64,000 nucleotides of DNA from Candidatus Sulfurimonas baltica. Its GTDB lineage: Bacteria > Campylobacterota > Campylobacteria > Campylobacterales > Sulfurimonadaceae. Position 1 is the stretch's first letter; every line of letters starts with the position of its first letter. Positions 8,690 to 21,999 of this stretch are shown here, one piece after another. The notes under the pieces were generated by a model that was given only the letters and a program-made list of their open reading frames with translations, had not been told where the DNA came from and did not search any database. The translations under genes and the position numbers were made by a program. The stretch is taken from the NCBI RefSeq assembly GCF_015265455.1, contig NZ_CP054492.1, positions 620,001 through 684,000 of the forward strand, in the 5' to 3' direction.

Positions 8690-9901
8690 TTGAAAAAAAA
8701 AATATTGATAGTTACTGAGTACTTTTATCCAGAAGAGTTTAAAATTAATGAAATTGCTGTCGCTTGGAAAGAAAAAGGTTATGACGTAGATGTACTTACG
8801 CAGAATCCAACATATCCTTTTGGTGAAATTTACAAAGAGTATGAAAATAAGTGGTATAGCAAGGATAGCTATAATGGTATAAATATTTACAGGGTAAAAG
8901 CAGTTACTGGATATAAGAGTAGCTTGTTTAAAAAGCTTTTAAAATATTTCACTTTTATGATTTTAGGAAGTATAGTTAGTCTTAAAATCGGTAAAAAATA
9001 TGACTACGTTTTTGGCTTTGATATTGCTGCTTTAACTTGTATGGTTCCAGCTGTGATTCTTAAAAAAACTTATAAAAAAAATGTGACATTATGGGTGCAA
9101 GATGTTTGGCCTGATAGTGTATATGCCTATGGGTTTAAAAAAACAAAACTTTTAGAGTTTATATTAAATGGATTTGTGAAATTTGTTTATAGAAATAGTT
9201 CAAATTTTGCAATTTCTGCTAAAGGTTTTGAGAATAAGATTAAGCTATATCTGGATGATAGTAAAGAGATTCGATATTTGCCAAATTGGGCTGATGAATT
9301 TAATGAGGAGTTGGAGCCTTTTATATTTAGTGATGAAAAAAAAGTTCACTTTACTTTTGCTGGAAATGTAGGAAAAGTGCAAAACCTTGACAACATATTA
9401 CTAGCTTATGGCAATTTAGTAGATGATTTGATAGAGAAATCTCAGATAAATATAATAGGAGATGGCTCTCATTTAGAAAGCTTAAAGAAACTAGTTAAAG
9501 ATAAAGGTTTAAAAAATATTGTTTTCTGGGGAAGAAAACCAAGAGAAGAGATGTATAAATACTTTAAAGCAAGTGATTTTTTAATAGTGTCCTTGATAGA
9601 TAAACCAATATTTTCACTAACGGTTCCCGCTAAAACTCAAACATATATAGCTGCAAATAAACCATTGTTTGGAGTGATAAAAGGTGAAGCATCAGATATT
9701 ATAAAAGATAACAACTTGGGATTTTGTGCAGAACCTGAAAATATACAAGAGATTCAAAATACTTTTGAAAAAGCGATATATGCGAGTCCGCAAGAAATAG
9801 AAGAATTTACCAGAAATGGCGAAAAATTGACAAATACAATTTTTGACAAGGAAAAGATAATTTCTTCATTATTAAATTTATTAATTGGGAAAGAGAAATG
9901 A
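8690..9901 (+). CDS. Glycosyltransferase, WbuB-like (6-deoxy-L-HexNAc transferase family)
   Basis: 403 aa GT4 protein. The N-terminus (VTEYFYPEEFKINEIA) and NPTYPFGEIYKEYENKW are very close in style to WbuB/FnlD-type transferases, which typically follow the L-FucNAc/L-QuiNAc pathway genes. WVQDVWPDS near 137 and a C-terminal IAANKPLFGVI.GEAS segment also fit. The start is TTG at 8690, with AGG 8 nt upstream; no ATG alternative preserves the N-terminal strand. It overlaps the next gene by 4 nt. It is predicted to add the L-sugar made by the preceding trio. Confidence 0.82.
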   Translation: MKKKILIVTEYFYPEEFKINEIAVAWKEKGYDVDVLTQNPTYPFGEIYKEYENKWYSKDSYNGINIYRVKAVTGYKSSLFKKLLKYFTFMILGSIVSLKIGKKYDYVFGFDIAALTCMVPAVILKKTYKKNVTLWVQDVWPDSVYAYGFKKTKLLEFILNGFVKFVYRNSSNFAISAKGFENKIKLYLDDSKEIRYLPNWADEFNEELEPFIFSDEKKVHFTFAGNVGKVQNLDNILLAYGNLVDDLIEKSQINIIGDGSHLESLKKLVKDKGLKNIVFWGRKPREEMYKYFKASDFLIVSLIDKPIFSLTVPAKTQTYIAANKPLFGVIKGEASDIIKDNNLGFCAEPENIQEIQNTFEKAIYASPQEIEEFTRNGEKLTNTIFDKEKIISSLLNLLIGKEK

Positions 9902-10806
9902 AATTATTGCTAACAGGTTCAAATGGTTTTATAGGAAACTACTTTATAAGTAAATACGCTGCAAAATATGAAATAACAAAATTCTCATTTTTAAATGATG
10001 ATTTTAAAGCTTTACATGTAGAAGATGTAGATGTTGTGATTCATCTATCTGCTCTTGTTCATCAGATGGGTGGAGCCAGCAAAGAAGAGTATGAAAAAGT
10101 AAATGTGACTCAGACTTTGGAGTTAGCTAAAAAAGCCAAAGAGAGTGGAGTTAAACATTTTGTATTTATGAGTACAGTTAAGGTGTATGGGGAAGAGACA
10201 GATGTAGCTTATAACGAAAATAGTGTGTGTAATCCAGAAGATGAGTATGGAAAGAGTAAGTTAAAAGCAGAGCAAGAGTTACAAAAGCTAGAAGATGATA
10301 ATTTTAAAGTTTCGATTATAAGAACTCCTATCGTTTATGGGTATGGCGTTAAAGCAAATATTAAAAATCTTGTTAGTTTAGTACAGAAAGTTCCTGTTTT
10401 GCCGTTTGGTGGGATAGACAATAAGCGAAGTATGGTTTATATAGGAAATCTTTGTCATTTGATAGATTCAGTAGTTAGATTCCAAATCAAGTTTGGAATG
10501 ACGGATGTGGATGGAATGACGGATGTGAGTGGAATGACTTGTTCTGGTGTATTTTTAGCATCTGATGATAAGGCTATCTCTACTACAAAGCTGATAGAGC
10601 TTATTGCAAAAGAGTTAAATAAAAAAGTGTATTTACTAAAAATTCCATTATTTGAAACATTTCTGAAAGTTGTTAAGCCATCTTTTCATAAAAGACTTTA
10701 TGGGAGCTTAGGAATAGATAACAGACTTACGAAAGATATGTTAGATTTTAAAAATCTATATACAGTCGAAGATGGGATAAAGCATATGATACATGGTGAA
10801 TGTTAA
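9898..10806 (+). CDS. NAD-dependent 4-keto-sugar reductase/epimerase, WbpV-like, carrying an in-frame repeat insertion
   Basis: 302 aa SDR: GSNGFIGNYF at the N-terminus, HLSALVHQMGG, MSTVKVYGE and YGKSK (Tyr-Lys pair), then RSMVYIGNLC. These are features of WbpV/WreQ-type enzymes that reduce UDP-4-keto-6-deoxy-GlcNAc to a UDP-D-QuiNAc/FucNAc-type sugar. The WbpL-like and WbpM-like genes downstream supply the rest of that route. Residues about 194-214, between the NLCHLIDSVV helix and the GVFLASDD strand, are a foreign-looking GMTDVD/GMTDVS repeat (see the repeat entry). The insertion lies in a surface loop position, so activity may be kept. Confidence 0.8.
   Translation: MKLLLTGSNGFIGNYFISKYAAKYEITKFSFLNDDFKALHVEDVDVVIHLSALVHQMGGASKEEYEKVNVTQTLELAKKAKESGVKHFVFMSTVKVYGEETDVAYNENSVCNPEDEYGKSKLKAEQELQKLEDDNFKVSIIRTPIVYGYGVKANIKNLVSLVQKVPVLPFGGIDNKRSMVYIGNLCHLIDSVVRFQIKFGMTDVDGMTDVSGMTCSGVFLASDDKAISTTKLIELIAKELNKKVYLLKIPLFETFLKVVKPSFHKRLYGSLGIDNRLTKDMLDFKNLYTVEDGIKHMIHGEC
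10479..10540 (+). repeat. Palindrome plus 18-bp tandem repeat inserted in the wbpV-like gene
   Basis: An 8-bp perfect inverted repeat, ATTCCAAA (10479-10486) and TTTGGAAT (10492-10499), surrounds the loop TCAAG. Its right arm runs into an 18-bp tandem unit beginning GGAATGACGGATGTG at 10495 and 10513, with a partial third copy at 10531. The reading frame stays open through it. Such ATTCC/GGAATGAC palindromic units are known as dispersed intergenic repeats in several bacteria; I infer that one has landed inside a gene. Confidence 0.75.
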
Positions 10807-10868: not shown

Positions 10869-11123
10869 ATGCAACCAATATTAGCAAACTATACAGCGAG
10901 CATAACAGAACTTAAAAAGTCTCCAACACAGTTACTAAAAGACGCGGGAAATGAAGCTGTAGCAATACTCAATCACAATGTGGCAAGTGCGTATTTGGTG
11001 CCAAGTGAGCTTTATGAAAAAATGATGGATATAATAGATGATTATTATTTGGCAAAAGAGGTTGAAGATAGATTGAGTTACAAAGAAGAAGATTTGATTG
11101 AAGTTAATATTAATGACCTATAA
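10869..11123 (+). CDS. Phd/YefM-type antitoxin
   Basis: 84 aa. The ITELKKSPTQLLKDAG..AVAILNHNVASAYLVPSELYEKM pattern is the Phd/YefM DNA-binding N-terminal domain, with an acidic C-terminal tail (EEDLIEVNINDL) that would wrap the toxin. I take ATG at 10869, which has AAAGGA at a normal distance; an in-frame TTG at 10863 lies on top of that site. It overlaps the RelE-like toxin gene by 11 nt. It should neutralise the toxin and repress its own promoter. It interrupts the order wbpV-wbpL. Confidence 0.85.
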   Translation: MQPILANYTASITELKKSPTQLLKDAGNEAVAILNHNVASAYLVPSELYEKMMDIIDDYYLAKEVEDRLSYKEEDLIEVNINDL

Positions 11124-11400
11124 ATTAAAATTTATCAAAGAATCAAATAAAGAATGGAACAAATTAACATCTACTATCAAAGAACAATTTCAAAAAAAGT
11201 TAAAAGAGCGATTGGAAAATCCAAAAGTTCCAAAAGATAAACTAAATGGCTATGAAAACATCTATAAAATAAAGCTTAGGAGTGTTGGGTATAGGCTGGC
11301 TTATGAAGTTAAAGATGATGAAATAGTAGTTTTAGTTTTAAGTGTAGGAAAAAGAGAAAACAATGCTATTTATTATAATTTGAAAGATAGAGTAGAATGA
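11113..11400 (+). CDS. RelE/StbE-type mRNA interferase toxin
   Basis: 95 aa, basic. YKLKFIKESNKEWNKL at the N-terminus, KLNGYENIYKIKLRSVGYRLAYEV in the middle and VLVLSVGKREN at the C-terminus are the classic RelE/StbE blocks. The known role is ribosome-dependent mRNA cleavage. ATG at 11113 lies inside the antitoxin gene; an upstream in-frame TTG at 11098 is less likely. Its stop overlaps the start of the WbpL-like gene by 4 nt, so the toxin is translationally coupled to the surface-sugar gene. Confidence 0.87.
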   Translation: MTYKLKFIKESNKEWNKLTSTIKEQFQKKLKERLENPKVPKDKLNGYENIYKIKLRSVGYRLAYEVKDDEIVVLVLSVGKRENNAIYYNLKDRVE

Positions 11401-12414: not shown

Positions 12415-12648
12415 ATGACAATAAGAAAAAATTTTTTACTTGATGATGAGATAGTAGAACATTTAAAAGAAATAGCGAGCAGAGAAAATATTACTCAGAC
12501 ACAAGTTGTTAAAGATTTGATAGAGGGGAGATATCAAGAGATTTCTATTGAGGAAAAATTGGAAGCACTTAATGCTTTTGCTGGAAGTGGTACAGGCCTT
12601 TATGGAGATTTGACAATCCAAGAGATTAAAGCGAATATGGATGTATAA
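12415..12648 (+). CDS. Ribbon-helix-helix antitoxin (CopG-like)
   Basis: 77 aa. The short strand IRKNFLLDDEIVEHLKEIASRENITQTQVVKDLIE fits a ribbon-helix-helix DNA-binding fold, followed by an acidic helical tail. I chose ATG at 12415, which follows GGGGTGGA by 4 nt; an in-frame GTG at 12406 falls within that ribosome site. It overlaps the PIN toxin gene by 8 nt. The operator-like palindrome over its -10 box suggests autoregulation. Partner and fold together support a VapB-like antitoxin. Confidence 0.8.
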   Translation: MTIRKNFLLDDEIVEHLKEIASRENITQTQVVKDLIEGRYQEISIEEKLEALNAFAGSGTGLYGDLTIQEIKANMDV

Positions 12649-13066
12649 AAAAGTTTTTATAGATGCTAATATCTTTATTGATATTAATGACAGGAACAGA
12701 AAAAGATATCAGGAAAGCTTGGATATATTGAAGTATTTGACACAAAATGGGATTGGGATATATACTAGCTGTGATTTAATAACAACTATTTACTATATCT
12801 TGGCAAAGGAAGATAAAGCAAATGCCTTGAGTGGGATTGAAAGAATAAATAAAATTTGTAAAGTCATAGAGTTTTCAAATAAAGAGATATCACTGACATG
12901 TCAATTGATGAATAAGGATAAAAACTATAAAGATTTAGAGGATACTCTTCAGTATATACTGGCTAAAAAATCAAAATGTGAGCTTATTATATCAAATGAT
13001 AAAAATTTTTACTCATCTGAAGTAGAGCTACTAAATACTGAGGAGTTTTGCGCAAAATACTTTTAA
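12641..13066 (+). CDS. PIN-domain ribonuclease toxin (VapC-like)
   Basis: 141 aa. The PIN acidic residues are visible: D in KKVFIDANIFIDIND at the N-terminus, a middle acidic residue, DLEDTLQYILAKKS near 98 and ISNDKNFYS near 118. The family are Mg-dependent RNases that cut tRNA or rRNA. It overlaps the antitoxin gene and is followed by a separate MNT/HEPN module with its own -10 box. Confidence 0.83.
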   Translation: MYKKVFIDANIFIDINDRNRKRYQESLDILKYLTQNGIGIYTSCDLITTIYYILAKEDKANALSGIERINKICKVIEFSNKEISLTCQLMNKDKNYKDLEDTLQYILAKKSKCELIISNDKNFYSSEVELLNTEEFCAKYF

Positions 13067-19149: not shown

Positions 19150-20643
19150 ATGCAAGATAATCAACAAAATATACAGAGATATGAAGAAGATGAGATAGAT
19201 TTAAGAGAACTGTTTAGAACTCTTATGAAAAACAGAATTAAAATTGTGCTTATTACTTTTTTTATTACAATCGGCGCAGTTATTTATGCCTATATGCTAC
19301 CAGAGGTTTATGAAGTAAAATCAAATATTCAGATTGGACAGATAAACCAAGAGTTAATAACAGAGCCGGAAACGCTTGTTAAAACTCTAAATTTGGTTTT
19401 TAATGTAGAAGATAAAATTTCAGCAAAAGAGAAATTTACCTCAGAGGTTTTCAGCATAGATACGAATAAAAAGTTGAAAAACTTTATAGAGATAATAACA
19501 AAAGCAATTTCAAATGAAGAAGCATTAAAAAAGAACAAAGAAGTTGTTACGTATATCGAAGATTTATATCAACCAAAAATAGAGCAATATATAATAAATA
19601 CTAAAAACAGCATAACAGACGCACAAAGAGATATATCTAATATAGAAAATTTTGAAATTAAAAATATACAACGACAAATTGAGTTGCTAAAAACTCAAAG
19701 GATTGTAGAAATTGATGCCAAGATAGCAAAGTTAATGAACCAAGATATAAAAAAGTTAGAACAACAAATTGAGTTGCTAAAAACCCAAAGGATTGTAGAC
19801 ATTGATGCAAAGATAGCAAAGTTACTCAATCAAGATATAAAAAAGTTAGAGCAACAAATTGAATTGCTAAAAACCCAAAGGATTGTAGAAATTGATAAGA
19901 AAATAGATTTTTATAATAATATTAAATTAAAAACAGTTGAGTCAAAGATTCAATTTCAGACTAATAAATTAAAAGAGTATACTGAATCAGTTAATGCATT
20001 GTATGAAAATAATAAATTAAATGATAATACATCAACAGTGATTTCATCTCTTCAAATGGTGAATTATCAAAATTTAATTTTAAATTCTCAAAATAAAATA
20101 GAAGACTTAAAAATAGAAAAAGAGATAATTACAAATGAAACAATAGACAATTTAGAGATAGAGAAAAAAAATATTTTAGACATCACTATAAAAGATATAG
20201 AATTACGTATAGAGAATATAAAGAATATTGATATAGCTAATCTTGAAAAAGAGAAGAGAAATATTTTAGACATCACTATAAAAGATATAGAGTTAAGTAT
20301 AGTGAATATTAAAAATATTGATATAGCTAAGCTTGAAAAAGAGAAGAGAAATATCAGTAATGAGACAATAAGAAAATTACAGCACCAAATTGATGTAGAT
20401 TTGGTTACAAAAAAAATAAAATTAGAAGAAAAAATCAATCAGCTTCAATTTAGCCTCTCAAAAAATTATATAAATAACTCTAGAGTTGTTGGAGACTATA
20501 TAGTTAAAGATTATCCAATAGCGCCTAAGAAAAAGCTGATTGTAGTCGTTGCCTTTGTAACAGGACTTATTTTATCTATCTTCTTGGTGTTTTTTATGGA
20601 GTTTATTAAGGGCTTTAAAGAAGAAGAGAACCCAGGGAGTTAA
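19150..20643 (+). CDS. Wzz-type chain-length determinant protein with long repeat-built coiled coil
   Basis: 497 aa polysaccharide co-polymerase. It has an N-terminal membrane helix (about 27-47) followed by the Wzz-type motif PEVYEVKSNIQIG. A very long periplasmic helical region follows, then DYPIAPKKKLIVVVAFVTG with the second membrane helix near 465-485 and the proline-rich Wzz entry. The periplasmic part contains two sets of 30-residue repeats. It regulates O-antigen chain length with the Wzy-like polymerase. A TATAAT at 19108-19113 may give it its own promoter. Just after its stop, an IS256-type element has separated it from a terminator. Confidence 0.87.
   Translation: MQDNQQNIQRYEEDEIDLRELFRTLMKNRIKIVLITFFITIGAVIYAYMLPEVYEVKSNIQIGQINQELITEPETLVKTLNLVFNVEDKISAKEKFTSEVFSIDTNKKLKNFIEIITKAISNEEALKKNKEVVTYIEDLYQPKIEQYIINTKNSITDAQRDISNIENFEIKNIQRQIELLKTQRIVEIDAKIAKLMNQDIKKLEQQIELLKTQRIVDIDAKIAKLLNQDIKKLEQQIELLKTQRIVEIDKKIDFYNNIKLKTVESKIQFQTNKLKEYTESVNALYENNKLNDNTSTVISSLQMVNYQNLILNSQNKIEDLKIEKEIITNETIDNLEIEKKNILDITIKDIELRIENIKNIDIANLEKEKRNILDITIKDIELSIVNIKNIDIAKLEKEKRNISNETIRKLQHQIDVDLVTKKIKLEEKINQLQFSLSKNYINNSRVVGDYIVKDYPIAPKKKLIVVVAFVTGLILSIFLVFFMEFIKGFKEEENPGS
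19671..20350 (+). repeat. Two sets of 90-bp tandem repeats inside the wzz-like gene
   Basis: Set one begins at 19671, 19761 and 19851 (third copy partial) and encodes IELLKTQRIVEIDAKIAKL plus a linker. Set two begins at 20171 and 20261 and encodes NILDITIKDIELRIENIKN plus a linker. Both have exactly a 30-codon period and near-identical nucleotide copies. They lie in the predicted coiled coil. Confidence 0.9.
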
Positions 20644-20656
20644 ATAGTGTAAAAGA

Positions 20657-21999
20657 GGGACTGTAAATAATTCTGTGTCAATAAGATAAAATATTGAATA
20701 CAGAAGGAAGTACAGATGAAAATAGAAATAGATGTTGCGGATTTTGCAGAGAAAATAAAATCAGGTAAAGGTTTGTCAGGCAAAGATGGAGCTTTGACAG
20801 ATTTAGTTAGACAGATTACAGAGATGACCTTACAAGCAGAGCTAGAATCTCATCTAGCTCAAGACCTCCAAAAGAACCGTAAAAATGGTTATATGTCAAA
20901 AACCATGAGAACCGAACATGGCGAGTTCGAGCTAGAAACCCCAAGAGACCGTAACGGTAGTTTCGAGCCTCAAATCGTAAAAAAAAGCCAGACGTATTTA
21001 TCAGATGAGATAGAAAAAAAGATGCTTTCTCTCTTTAGCTTGGGAAGCAGCTACTCTCAGATTAGTGAACACATAGAAGATATCTATGGCGTGCACTTCT
21101 CCAAGCCAGCTATTACAACTGTTACCGATAAACTAATACCTATGCTTGAAGAGTGGAAAATAAGACCGCTAGACGCCATATATCCGTTTATATATTTGGA
21201 CGCCATTCACTATAAAGTGAGAGAAGACGGTCACTATGTGTCAAAGGCTTTTTATACCGTACTCGGCATAAACCTTGAAGGTAAAAAAGAGATATTAGGA
21301 TTATATCTCAATGAAAGTGAAGGTGCTAAGTTCTGGCTGCAGGTGCTTACAGACTTACAGAACCGTGGAGTGCAAGATATACTCATCGCTTCCGTTGATG
21401 GGCTAAAGGGCTTTCCTGAAGCCATAAATGCTGTCTTTCCAGAGACTGAAGTGCAACTCTGCATAGTCCATCAAATACGCAACAGCGTTAAATACATTGC
21501 ATCTAAAGATCAGAAAATATTCGTAGGTGAACTTAAAAGTGTTTACCAGGCTTTCACAAAAGAAGAAGCTGAACTGGCATTAGATAAACTTGAGTCAAAA
21601 TGGGGCAAAAAATACCCTATTGTATTTGAATCTTGGAGAAATAAGTGGGATAATTTATCTAACTATTTTAAGTATCCAGAGCCTATTAGACGCATTATCT
21701 ACACTACCAATATCATTGAATCCATACATCGCCAATTTAGAACATTGACAAAGACAAAAGGAGCCTTCCCAAATGATAATAGCCTATTAAAATTACTGTT
21801 TGCTGGAATAAGAAACGCTGAGAAAAAATGGACTATGCCGATACATAATTGGAGCCTCACAATCTCTCAACTCAATATATTTTTTAAGGAGAGATTAAAA
21901 GACGCTTTAGGATTAGGTCTGTAAAATGCCATTGGCTAGCATTTTTATGATACAATTTTAAGAGAAATTAGGTGTTGACACAGAATTTATTACACTCCC
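20657..21999 (+). mobile_element. IS256-family insertion sequence, complete, with 8-bp target duplication
   Basis: Terminal inverted repeats of 27 bp lie at 20657-20683 (beginning GGGACTGTAA) and 21973-21999 (reverse strand beginning GGGAGTGTAA), both ending in the ATTCTGTGTCAA core. The direct repeat GTAAAAGA flanks the element at 20649-20656 and 22000-22007. It carries one intact transposase. The ends and target duplication look fresh, so the insertion is probably recent. It sits between the convergent wzz-like and glutathionylspermidine-synthase-like genes. Confidence 0.92.
20716..21924 (+). CDS. IS256-family (Mutator-type) transposase
   Basis: 402 aa, normal length for the family. The DDE residues are recognisable: D in YLDAIHYKVREDG near 158, D in ASVDGLKGFPEAI near 226 with the CIVHQIRNS block after it, and E in YTTNIIESIHRQFR near 336. 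It has no frameshift, so it is likely active. The start is ATG at 20716 after AGAAGGAAG. Confidence 0.94.
   Translation: MKIEIDVADFAEKIKSGKGLSGKDGALTDLVRQITEMTLQAELESHLAQDLQKNRKNGYMSKTMRTEHGEFELETPRDRNGSFEPQIVKKSQTYLSDEIEKKMLSLFSLGSSYSQISEHIEDIYGVHFSKPAITTVTDKLIPMLEEWKIRPLDAIYPFIYLDAIHYKVREDGHYVSKAFYTVLGINLEGKKEILGLYLNESEGAKFWLQVLTDLQNRGVQDILIASVDGLKGFPEAINAVFPETEVQLCIVHQIRNSVKYIASKDQKIFVGELKSVYQAFTKEEAELALDKLESKWGKKYPIVFESWRNKWDNLSNYFKYPEPIRRIIYTTNIIESIHRQFRTLTKTKGAFPNDNSLLKLLFAGIRNAEKKWTMPIHNWSLTISQLNIFFKERLKDALGLGL

Follow-up and report, generated by a model that had tools for sequence, protein, structure and literature searches.

A CGTC-Tagged REP Unit in Frame in a Loop of a Sugar Epimerase-Like Gene of Candidatus Sulfurimonas baltica

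How does a palindrome followed by a tandem array come to lie, in frame, within the gene of a sugar epimerase/reductase-like enzyme? The question is raised by a stretch of 64,000 nucleotides (the window; G000:C1:620001-684000) of the reference genome of Candidatus Sulfurimonas baltica (G000, also designated WIN; 2,737,757 bases in one contig). The initial annotation described a perfect 8-bp inverted repeat and a 2.5-copy 18-bp tandem array that add about 21 residues to the enzyme without breaking the frame. Both elements are present where they were placed, at 10479–10486/10492–10499 and 10494–10538, and ORF 9898–10806 runs across them with no stop. The interpretation offered with them is largely supported. 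The unit itself begins two bases before the proposed start at 10479, and the gain is real but amounts to a net 18 residues, since 24 residues stand where 41 of 50 homologous rows have six. The features are the following.

9898–10806, + strand: 302-aa NAD-dependent sugar epimerase/reductase-like gene, from the ORF, a PF01370 match (E 2.3e-22) and fold matches
10477–10548, + strand: whole loop of 24 residues (194–217) in place of the modal 6-residue loop, delimited by the loop columns and the DNA of empty and filled sites
10477–10503, + strand: CGTC-tagged REP unit, AGATTCCAAATCAAGTTTGGAATGACG, with the in-frame peptide RFQIKFGMT (codons 194–202)
10479–10486, + strand: left arm of the stem, 8 bp, perfect inverted repeat
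10492–10499, + strand: right arm of the stem, 8 bp, perfect inverted repeat
10500–10503, − strand: CGTC tag (GACG on the + strand), from the sequence, the tag being defined in the available text of PMC3733652
10494–10538, + strand: tandem array with a period of 18 bp (right arm, tag and spacer), present in 2.5 copies, with the peptide GMTDVD GMTDVS GMT

The stem arms lie 5 nt apart, GACG abuts the right arm, and the element measures 27 bp as a unit and 62 bp with the array, which blurs the right border of the insert. By the sequence of its tag, stem and loop the unit fits the CGTC-tagged REPs, which the accessible text of Di Nocera, De Gregorio and Rocco (2013, PMC3733652) defines by that tag, a stem of 8–9 bp and a loop of 4–5 nt.

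The nearest named relatives of the host gene belong to Sulfurimonas and other Campylobacterota, and the surrounding ORFs resemble, by eye, a polysaccharide locus. An AlphaFold2 model of the protein (mean pLDDT 84.5, built from 13 sequences) matched UDP-glucose 4-epimerases, dTDP-glucose 4,6-dehydratase and RmlD/RMD, so that the predicted fold is that of an extended short-chain dehydrogenase/reductase (SDR). In the model, the REP-coded residues 194–198 prolong helix 182–198, residues 202–215 have a pLDDT below 50, and strand 218–220 comes next. The same locus holds, by eye, small ORFs like a YefM/RelE-type pair and a PIN-type protein (10869–11400 and 12641–13066). Further on, a 497-aa ORF (19150–20643) with the look of a Wzz-type chain-length protein, also by eye, carries two 90-bp tandem arrays (19670–19896 and 20160–20354; 2.5 and 2.2 copies); because 90 is a multiple of three, this coiled-coil-like region can vary in length in frame. 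It is directly followed by a 402-aa ORF (20716–21924) that by eye resembles an IS256/mutator-type transposase.

Taken alone, the palindrome is not strong evidence. Perfect inverted repeats of 8 bp with a 3–8-nt loop are common in the window, numbering 31 compared with 11–24 in ten first-order Markov shuffles; TTTGGAATGACGG has 4 matches there at ≤2 mismatches against 1.03 expected, a number reached in 3 of 100 shuffles; and the mRNA of 10473–10545 has an ordinary fold, no better than that of shuffled sequences (z −1.03). The core of the repeat is single copy within these 64 kb, and the array (TRF score 76, 92% matches) ranks third by score among 66 window rows.

Proof is supplied by the genomic copies, for which the initial annotation had proposed a search. 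A 28-mer spanning 10477–10504, AGATTCCAAATCAAGTTTGGAATGACGG, has 42 matches in the genome at ≤3 mismatches and none for the reversed control; a degenerate core gives 99 at ≤2 mismatches (control 1) and a stricter pattern 95 (control 0). A looser pattern, applied to 45 stretches around matches (232,561 bases), yielded 110 units; the chromosome holds about 100 copies. Stem pairing is complete (8/8 positions) in 92 of the 110, extends over seven positions in 14 and over fewer in 4. Among 42 distinct units the stem covaries: paired cells reach 94.3% versus 78.6% when shuffled and at most 48.8% when slid, and double changes number 75 versus 25.0 in shuffles; two of the five covariation measures are unremarkable against shuffles (pair types 415/500, both-side changes 30/500). 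The columns ending in TGAC are conserved at 90% or more across the same 42 units, and the unpaired tail at the untagged end is short, CT or CTA. The abundance of perfect inverted repeats in this AT-rich window gives some color to a chance palindrome beside a chance tandem repeat, or to an assembly error, but the 42 copies against a control of 0, together with the same insert in the genome of a sister species (G032), refute both, and we give them practically no weight.

The units commonly form inverted pairs: the CGTC tags lie inside in 49 pairs (within 250 bp) and outside in 4 (within 60 bp), a count in which some clustered units are entered twice and two pairs from inside priA are included. 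The bases preceding intergenic units vary. The inner region of the pairs often carries tandem copies of right arm, tag and spacer, and these arrays seem to form locally, on the spot, because the spacer differs between loci. One region (G000:C1 ~2482250–2489000; L019, L020, L131, L132) is a dense REP cluster of several kb with long 22-bp arrays. Many intergenic pairs (e.g., L027, L029, L030) are flanked by imperfect ~30-bp outer inverted repeats resembling TTAATTGAACTCTCTGATTAATTCATAAACT, and by eye suggest a larger MITE-like element with the pair at its center.

Is the long loop a property of the enzyme family? Homologues of the epimerase were matched in 37 of 120 genus genomes, and 53 rows were aligned: the window, 14 loci from genome contigs and 38 from genus genomes. 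L079 and L080 (31% and 29% identity) were kept outside the alignment, and L118, which duplicates the locus L175, was removed. L078, L117 and L170 stop short of the loop and enter as zero-length rows; they are absent from the 49-row tree, as is L168, a short second copy in G086 with a loop of 6. The alignment bears out the insertion that the initial annotation had proposed, as the loop has exactly 6 residues in 41 of the 50 loop-spanning rows (G006 is an example) and 11–36 in the other 9; the long loop is not common to the family. Since L065/L093, L066/L097, L069/L098 and L072/L109 are identical outside the loop, these 50 rows represent 46 distinct proteins, 38 with six residues and 8 longer. 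Six of the 8 long loops contain a window-type REP, one contains another palindrome and one nothing recognized:

WIN and G032: unit plus 18-bp array, stem AAA/TTT, loops of 24 and 30 residues
G093: single unit, stem AAA/TTT, loop of 12 residues
G086 (and its twin record L065): single unit, stem CGG/CCG
G021: two units, stem GTG/CAC
G101: unit plus 21-bp array, stem GGG/CCC
L076: another palindrome bearing the tag, judged by eye
L114/G064: no element recognized

In the six distinct proteins with a window-type REP, the unit starts at an identical codon boundary, with one orientation and phase, and the codon before it ends in TT each time. A filling unit need not have the stem type that prevails locally: the in-gene stem of G086 differs from the 29 other units listed in that genome, and the in-gene type accounts for 3 of 44 units listed in G101 and 2 of 7 in G093. 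As a separate observation, L072 and L109 (G113) carry a different palindrome-derived peptide, GLPRSARND, in frame in another loop, after GEETS.

On a tree of 49 rows built with the loop masked, filled loops are scattered over several lineages. WIN and G032 are sisters (100/96), and filled rows stand beside empty ones in G093 with G089 (98/89) and L076 with L077 (99/90). The filled state requires 7 changes, at least 4 of them forced by starred branches, when L076 and L114/G064 are scored as filled although untied to the window REP type. Of 200 bootstrap trees, 0% show a single origin. Support is weak for 16 of the 42 inner branches, and the filled label shows no significant clustering on the tree (58/500 shuffles as low). 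It could be argued that one ancient insertion in the enzyme family was followed by many losses or by short-tract exchange, the stems being altered by paired mutation or template switching. The identical boundary, orientation and phase of all six units speak for such a history, as does the AAA/TTT stem in three of the six; indeed, this stem, common to WIN, G032 and G093, together with the shared placement, allows descent from one insertion through losses or exchange. Against it, the modal length of exactly 6 residues, seen in 41 of the 50 loop-spanning rows, would demand that every loss be precise, and filled rows have empty neighbors in both pairs named above. We regard this history as unlikely. 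Repeated insertion seems, from these sequences, more likely than exact losses restoring six residues each time, and the similar repeats at the same spot in relatives are probably separate insertions.

Units inside genes are few. Among the 110 units of the own genome, 6 lie within ORFs of at least 100 aa and one more overlaps an ORF edge. One of the six is in the epimerase, four are in priA and one is at residues 4–13 of a 496-aa ORF, where it may precede the true start. Clearly internal units thus number 5 of 110 and occur in only two genes, epimerase and priA, both of which are filled again in other species. The priA units sit between the DNA-binding and helicase parts of the protein, and no unit is present in the PriA of the sister G032, which is 96% identical where the two proteins align. 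A search for priA matched 102 of the 120 genus genomes; 51 rows were aligned (48 genus, 3 outside) and 50 linkers read, the frame of G021 priA being broken at the linker. Window-type units were recognized by script in 8 of the 50 linkers (G000, G016, G062, G065, G075, G100, G115, G139), a share that is not a frequency because the rows were partly chosen for long frames, and the linkers of G004, G103 and G120 hold a different repeat, around GTCATTGCGAGCG. On the PriA tree, which has long outgroup branches and for which the decayed unit of G086 and the 16 rows of the class "other inverted repeat" were assigned by eye, the REP label requires six changes, all forced by starred branches. The priA linkers of G016 (L142), G075 (L179) and G065 (L176) also carry in-frame 18- or 21-bp arrays beside the REP units; that of G016 has five RVVxDDG-like repeats.

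In G062, where 98 distinct units were read among 135 counted (C10:71569 and two C11 places left out), at least 7 fall within ORFs of 100 aa or more. Three of these, at residue 7, probably precede the true start; the four internal units are in:

PriA
a protein resembling lipid A acyltransferases, in which the peptide is FQIKFGMT and the array has four steps of 18 bp
a glycosyltransferase-like protein (PMT_2 match below its cut-off)
another epimerase, with the insert before strand YRIYNIGN, in the same fold loop by eye

The constant position, orientation and phase of the epimerase units are the best hint, in these sequences, of target preference. A CGTC REP mover might pick this sequence, and sites like the priA linker, in fixed orientation, with protein tolerance acting as a second filter; this proposal shares most steps with the explanation preferred below and differs in why the same spot fills. 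It would account for six units at one boundary, each after a TT-ending codon, and for the refilling elsewhere of the only two genes of the own genome with clearly internal units. No target word emerged, and the bases before the intergenic units vary; a short loop and tolerance alone could fix one position, and the several unlike palindromes in priA linkers fit tolerance better. We consider target preference a tentative and less likely proposal.

The initial annotation's suggestion that the number of 18-bp copies varies holds between sister species, with an extra unit in G032 relative to the 2.5 copies of WIN. Eight in-gene arrays were taken as independent (the epimerase of WIN/G032 and that of G101; priA of G016, G075 and G065; three G062 genes), hand-picked and including a G062 epimerase array of two copies only, and the period is 18 or 21 in all eight. 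The 14 intergenic array loci have 27 spacings of 18–26 bp, mostly 20–23, of which 10 are multiples of three; one array is counted twice in this tally, and distances of 57 and 42 are omitted. All spacings are multiples of three in 3 of the 14 intergenic loci versus 8 of 8 in genes (one-sided Fisher p 0.0005). Such a contrast is the prediction of a reading-frame filter and is silent on function.

Outside the insert, WIN and G032 differ over 278 codons with a dN of 0.071 and a dS of 0.324, which suggests that the host enzyme stayed under purifying selection; the gene looks alive. Inside it, the 24 aligned codons contain 7 non-synonymous and 0 synonymous changes, an alignment-dependent count in which the peptide appears free of any sign of constraint. 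These values bear on the idea of a useful insert, whereby a variable array in a polysaccharide gene would serve as a contingency locus and tune the enzyme or its partners. The unequal lengths of the loop arrays in WIN, G032 and G101 would suit it, and so would the further arrays of G062, in its epimerase gene and in those resembling a lipid A acyltransferase and a glycosyltransferase. The array was rejected as an on/off switch, because with in-gene periods of 18 or 21 the frame is always kept; moreover, 41 of the 50 homologue rows do without an insert, the peptide seems unconstrained between WIN and G032, and the same pattern occurs in the replication-restart gene priA. We consider a useful insert improbable.

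The data presented above have led us to propose, with a probability of roughly 70%, an in-frame REP insertion followed by local duplication of its tail, with a tolerated peptide and with refilling of the same codon boundary in other lineages. A CGTC-tagged REP would have entered the helix–strand loop of an extended-SDR sugar enzyme, in frame, before WIN and G032 split. Local duplication of its outer part (right arm, tag and spacer) in 18-bp steps would have followed, and within the gene survival would have been restricted to duplication steps that preserve the frame. Given continued purifying selection on the enzyme, the extra peptide is most likely a passenger that the protein tolerates. In other lineages, similar units with different stems would have filled the identical codon boundary. 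We infer that the insert peptide is made, that it is near-neutral and that each filled site arose by its own insertion.

According to the available text of PMC3733652, CGTC REPs seem to have no transposase of their own. No Y1_Tnp match was obtained in the own genome in a profile search limited to PF01797, and across the 120 genus genomes Y1 presence shows no association with REP number: it was found in 11 of 18 genomes with at least 10 REPs versus 49 of the 102 others (p 0.44), and in 10 of 14 with 20 or more (p 0.15). It is possible, and we advance it as a conjecture, that these REPs move by a site- and orientation-preferring process with no need of Y1, repeatedly entering a few Sulfurimonas loops (the sugar SDR helix–strand loop and the PriA linker), and that duplication of their ends there gives rise to repeats of 6 or 7 residues. 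If so, site-preferring CGTC REPs would continually supply free-living bacteria with new protein loops. Filling at the identical nucleotide in several lineages, together with empty relatives, makes target choice testable against mere tolerance; for priA the empty sister, with the 96% identity given above, serves for comparison. Natural enzymes with loops of 6–36 residues would reveal the effect of the REP-coded peptide on the protein.

No paper on the epimerase insertion was found in the literature searched, subscription journals lying mostly outside its coverage. The accessible text of PMC3733652 lists Sulfurovum and does not contain Sulfurimonas, and Sulfurimonas gotlandica is named in a table row in the consulted part of PMC12306157. 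In its available text, PMC3733652 reports CGTC REPs within genes, many of them for replication and repair, and different REPs at roughly one site in recB of two Xanthomonas, and suggests that inserts in linkers or loops are possibly neutral. The statement of the initial annotation that translated elements are rare should be tempered in this light: intragenic REPs have been published for several species, and here one loop is filled in several lineages. Its parallel with Rickettsia palindromic elements (RPEs) is apt, as the superfamily described in PMC3733652 includes RPE-4 and RPE-6 of Rickettsia conorii.

Among known systems, the GTAG REPs with RAYT (Y1) are alike in short palindromes, inverted pairs and high copy number, but their tag differs from the CGTC found here and the own genome has no PF01797 match, which places the unit outside that group. 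Bacterial MITEs are resembled only by the intergenic pairs with their outer ~30-bp inverted repeats, seen by eye; the window copy has no outer terminal inverted repeats, and its flanks match homologue coding sequence. Rickettsia elements share an in-frame palindromic repeat read as peptide in an otherwise normal, conserved gene (PMC2229807, PMC3733652, as far as their available texts go). RPEs of the long type measure 105–146 bp in the review PMC2229807, compared with the 27-bp unit here, and by size the unit is not one of them; RPE-4 and RPE-6 are nearer to it, because both are CGTC REPs. The RPE-bearing guanylate kinase described in the available part of that review is reported to be translated and active, with altered substrate affinity, which by analogy supports tolerance of the window insert. 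The closest likeness, going by the accessible text of PMC3733652, is to the CGTC REPs, with which the window repeat shares the CGTC tag, 8-bp stem, 5-nt loop and high copy number, and with which it also has in common mostly extragenic inverted pairs and some in-frame genic units. As for the dedicated transposase that those REPs seem to lack, the search here, limited to PF01797, gave no match. That text gives the short unpaired tail as mostly CCA, whereas the Sulfurimonas units have CT(A), and words the mostly head-to-head pairs as having the tags outside, which, if taken literally, differs from the tags-inside majority here in frequency and not in a defining trait. Compared with the REPs described there, local tail arrays are frequent in Sulfurimonas, and several lineages of the genus have a unit at one and the same codon boundary. 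An intragenic REP is of an already known kind; what is apparently new is the recurrence at one nucleotide position and the translation of the tail arrays.
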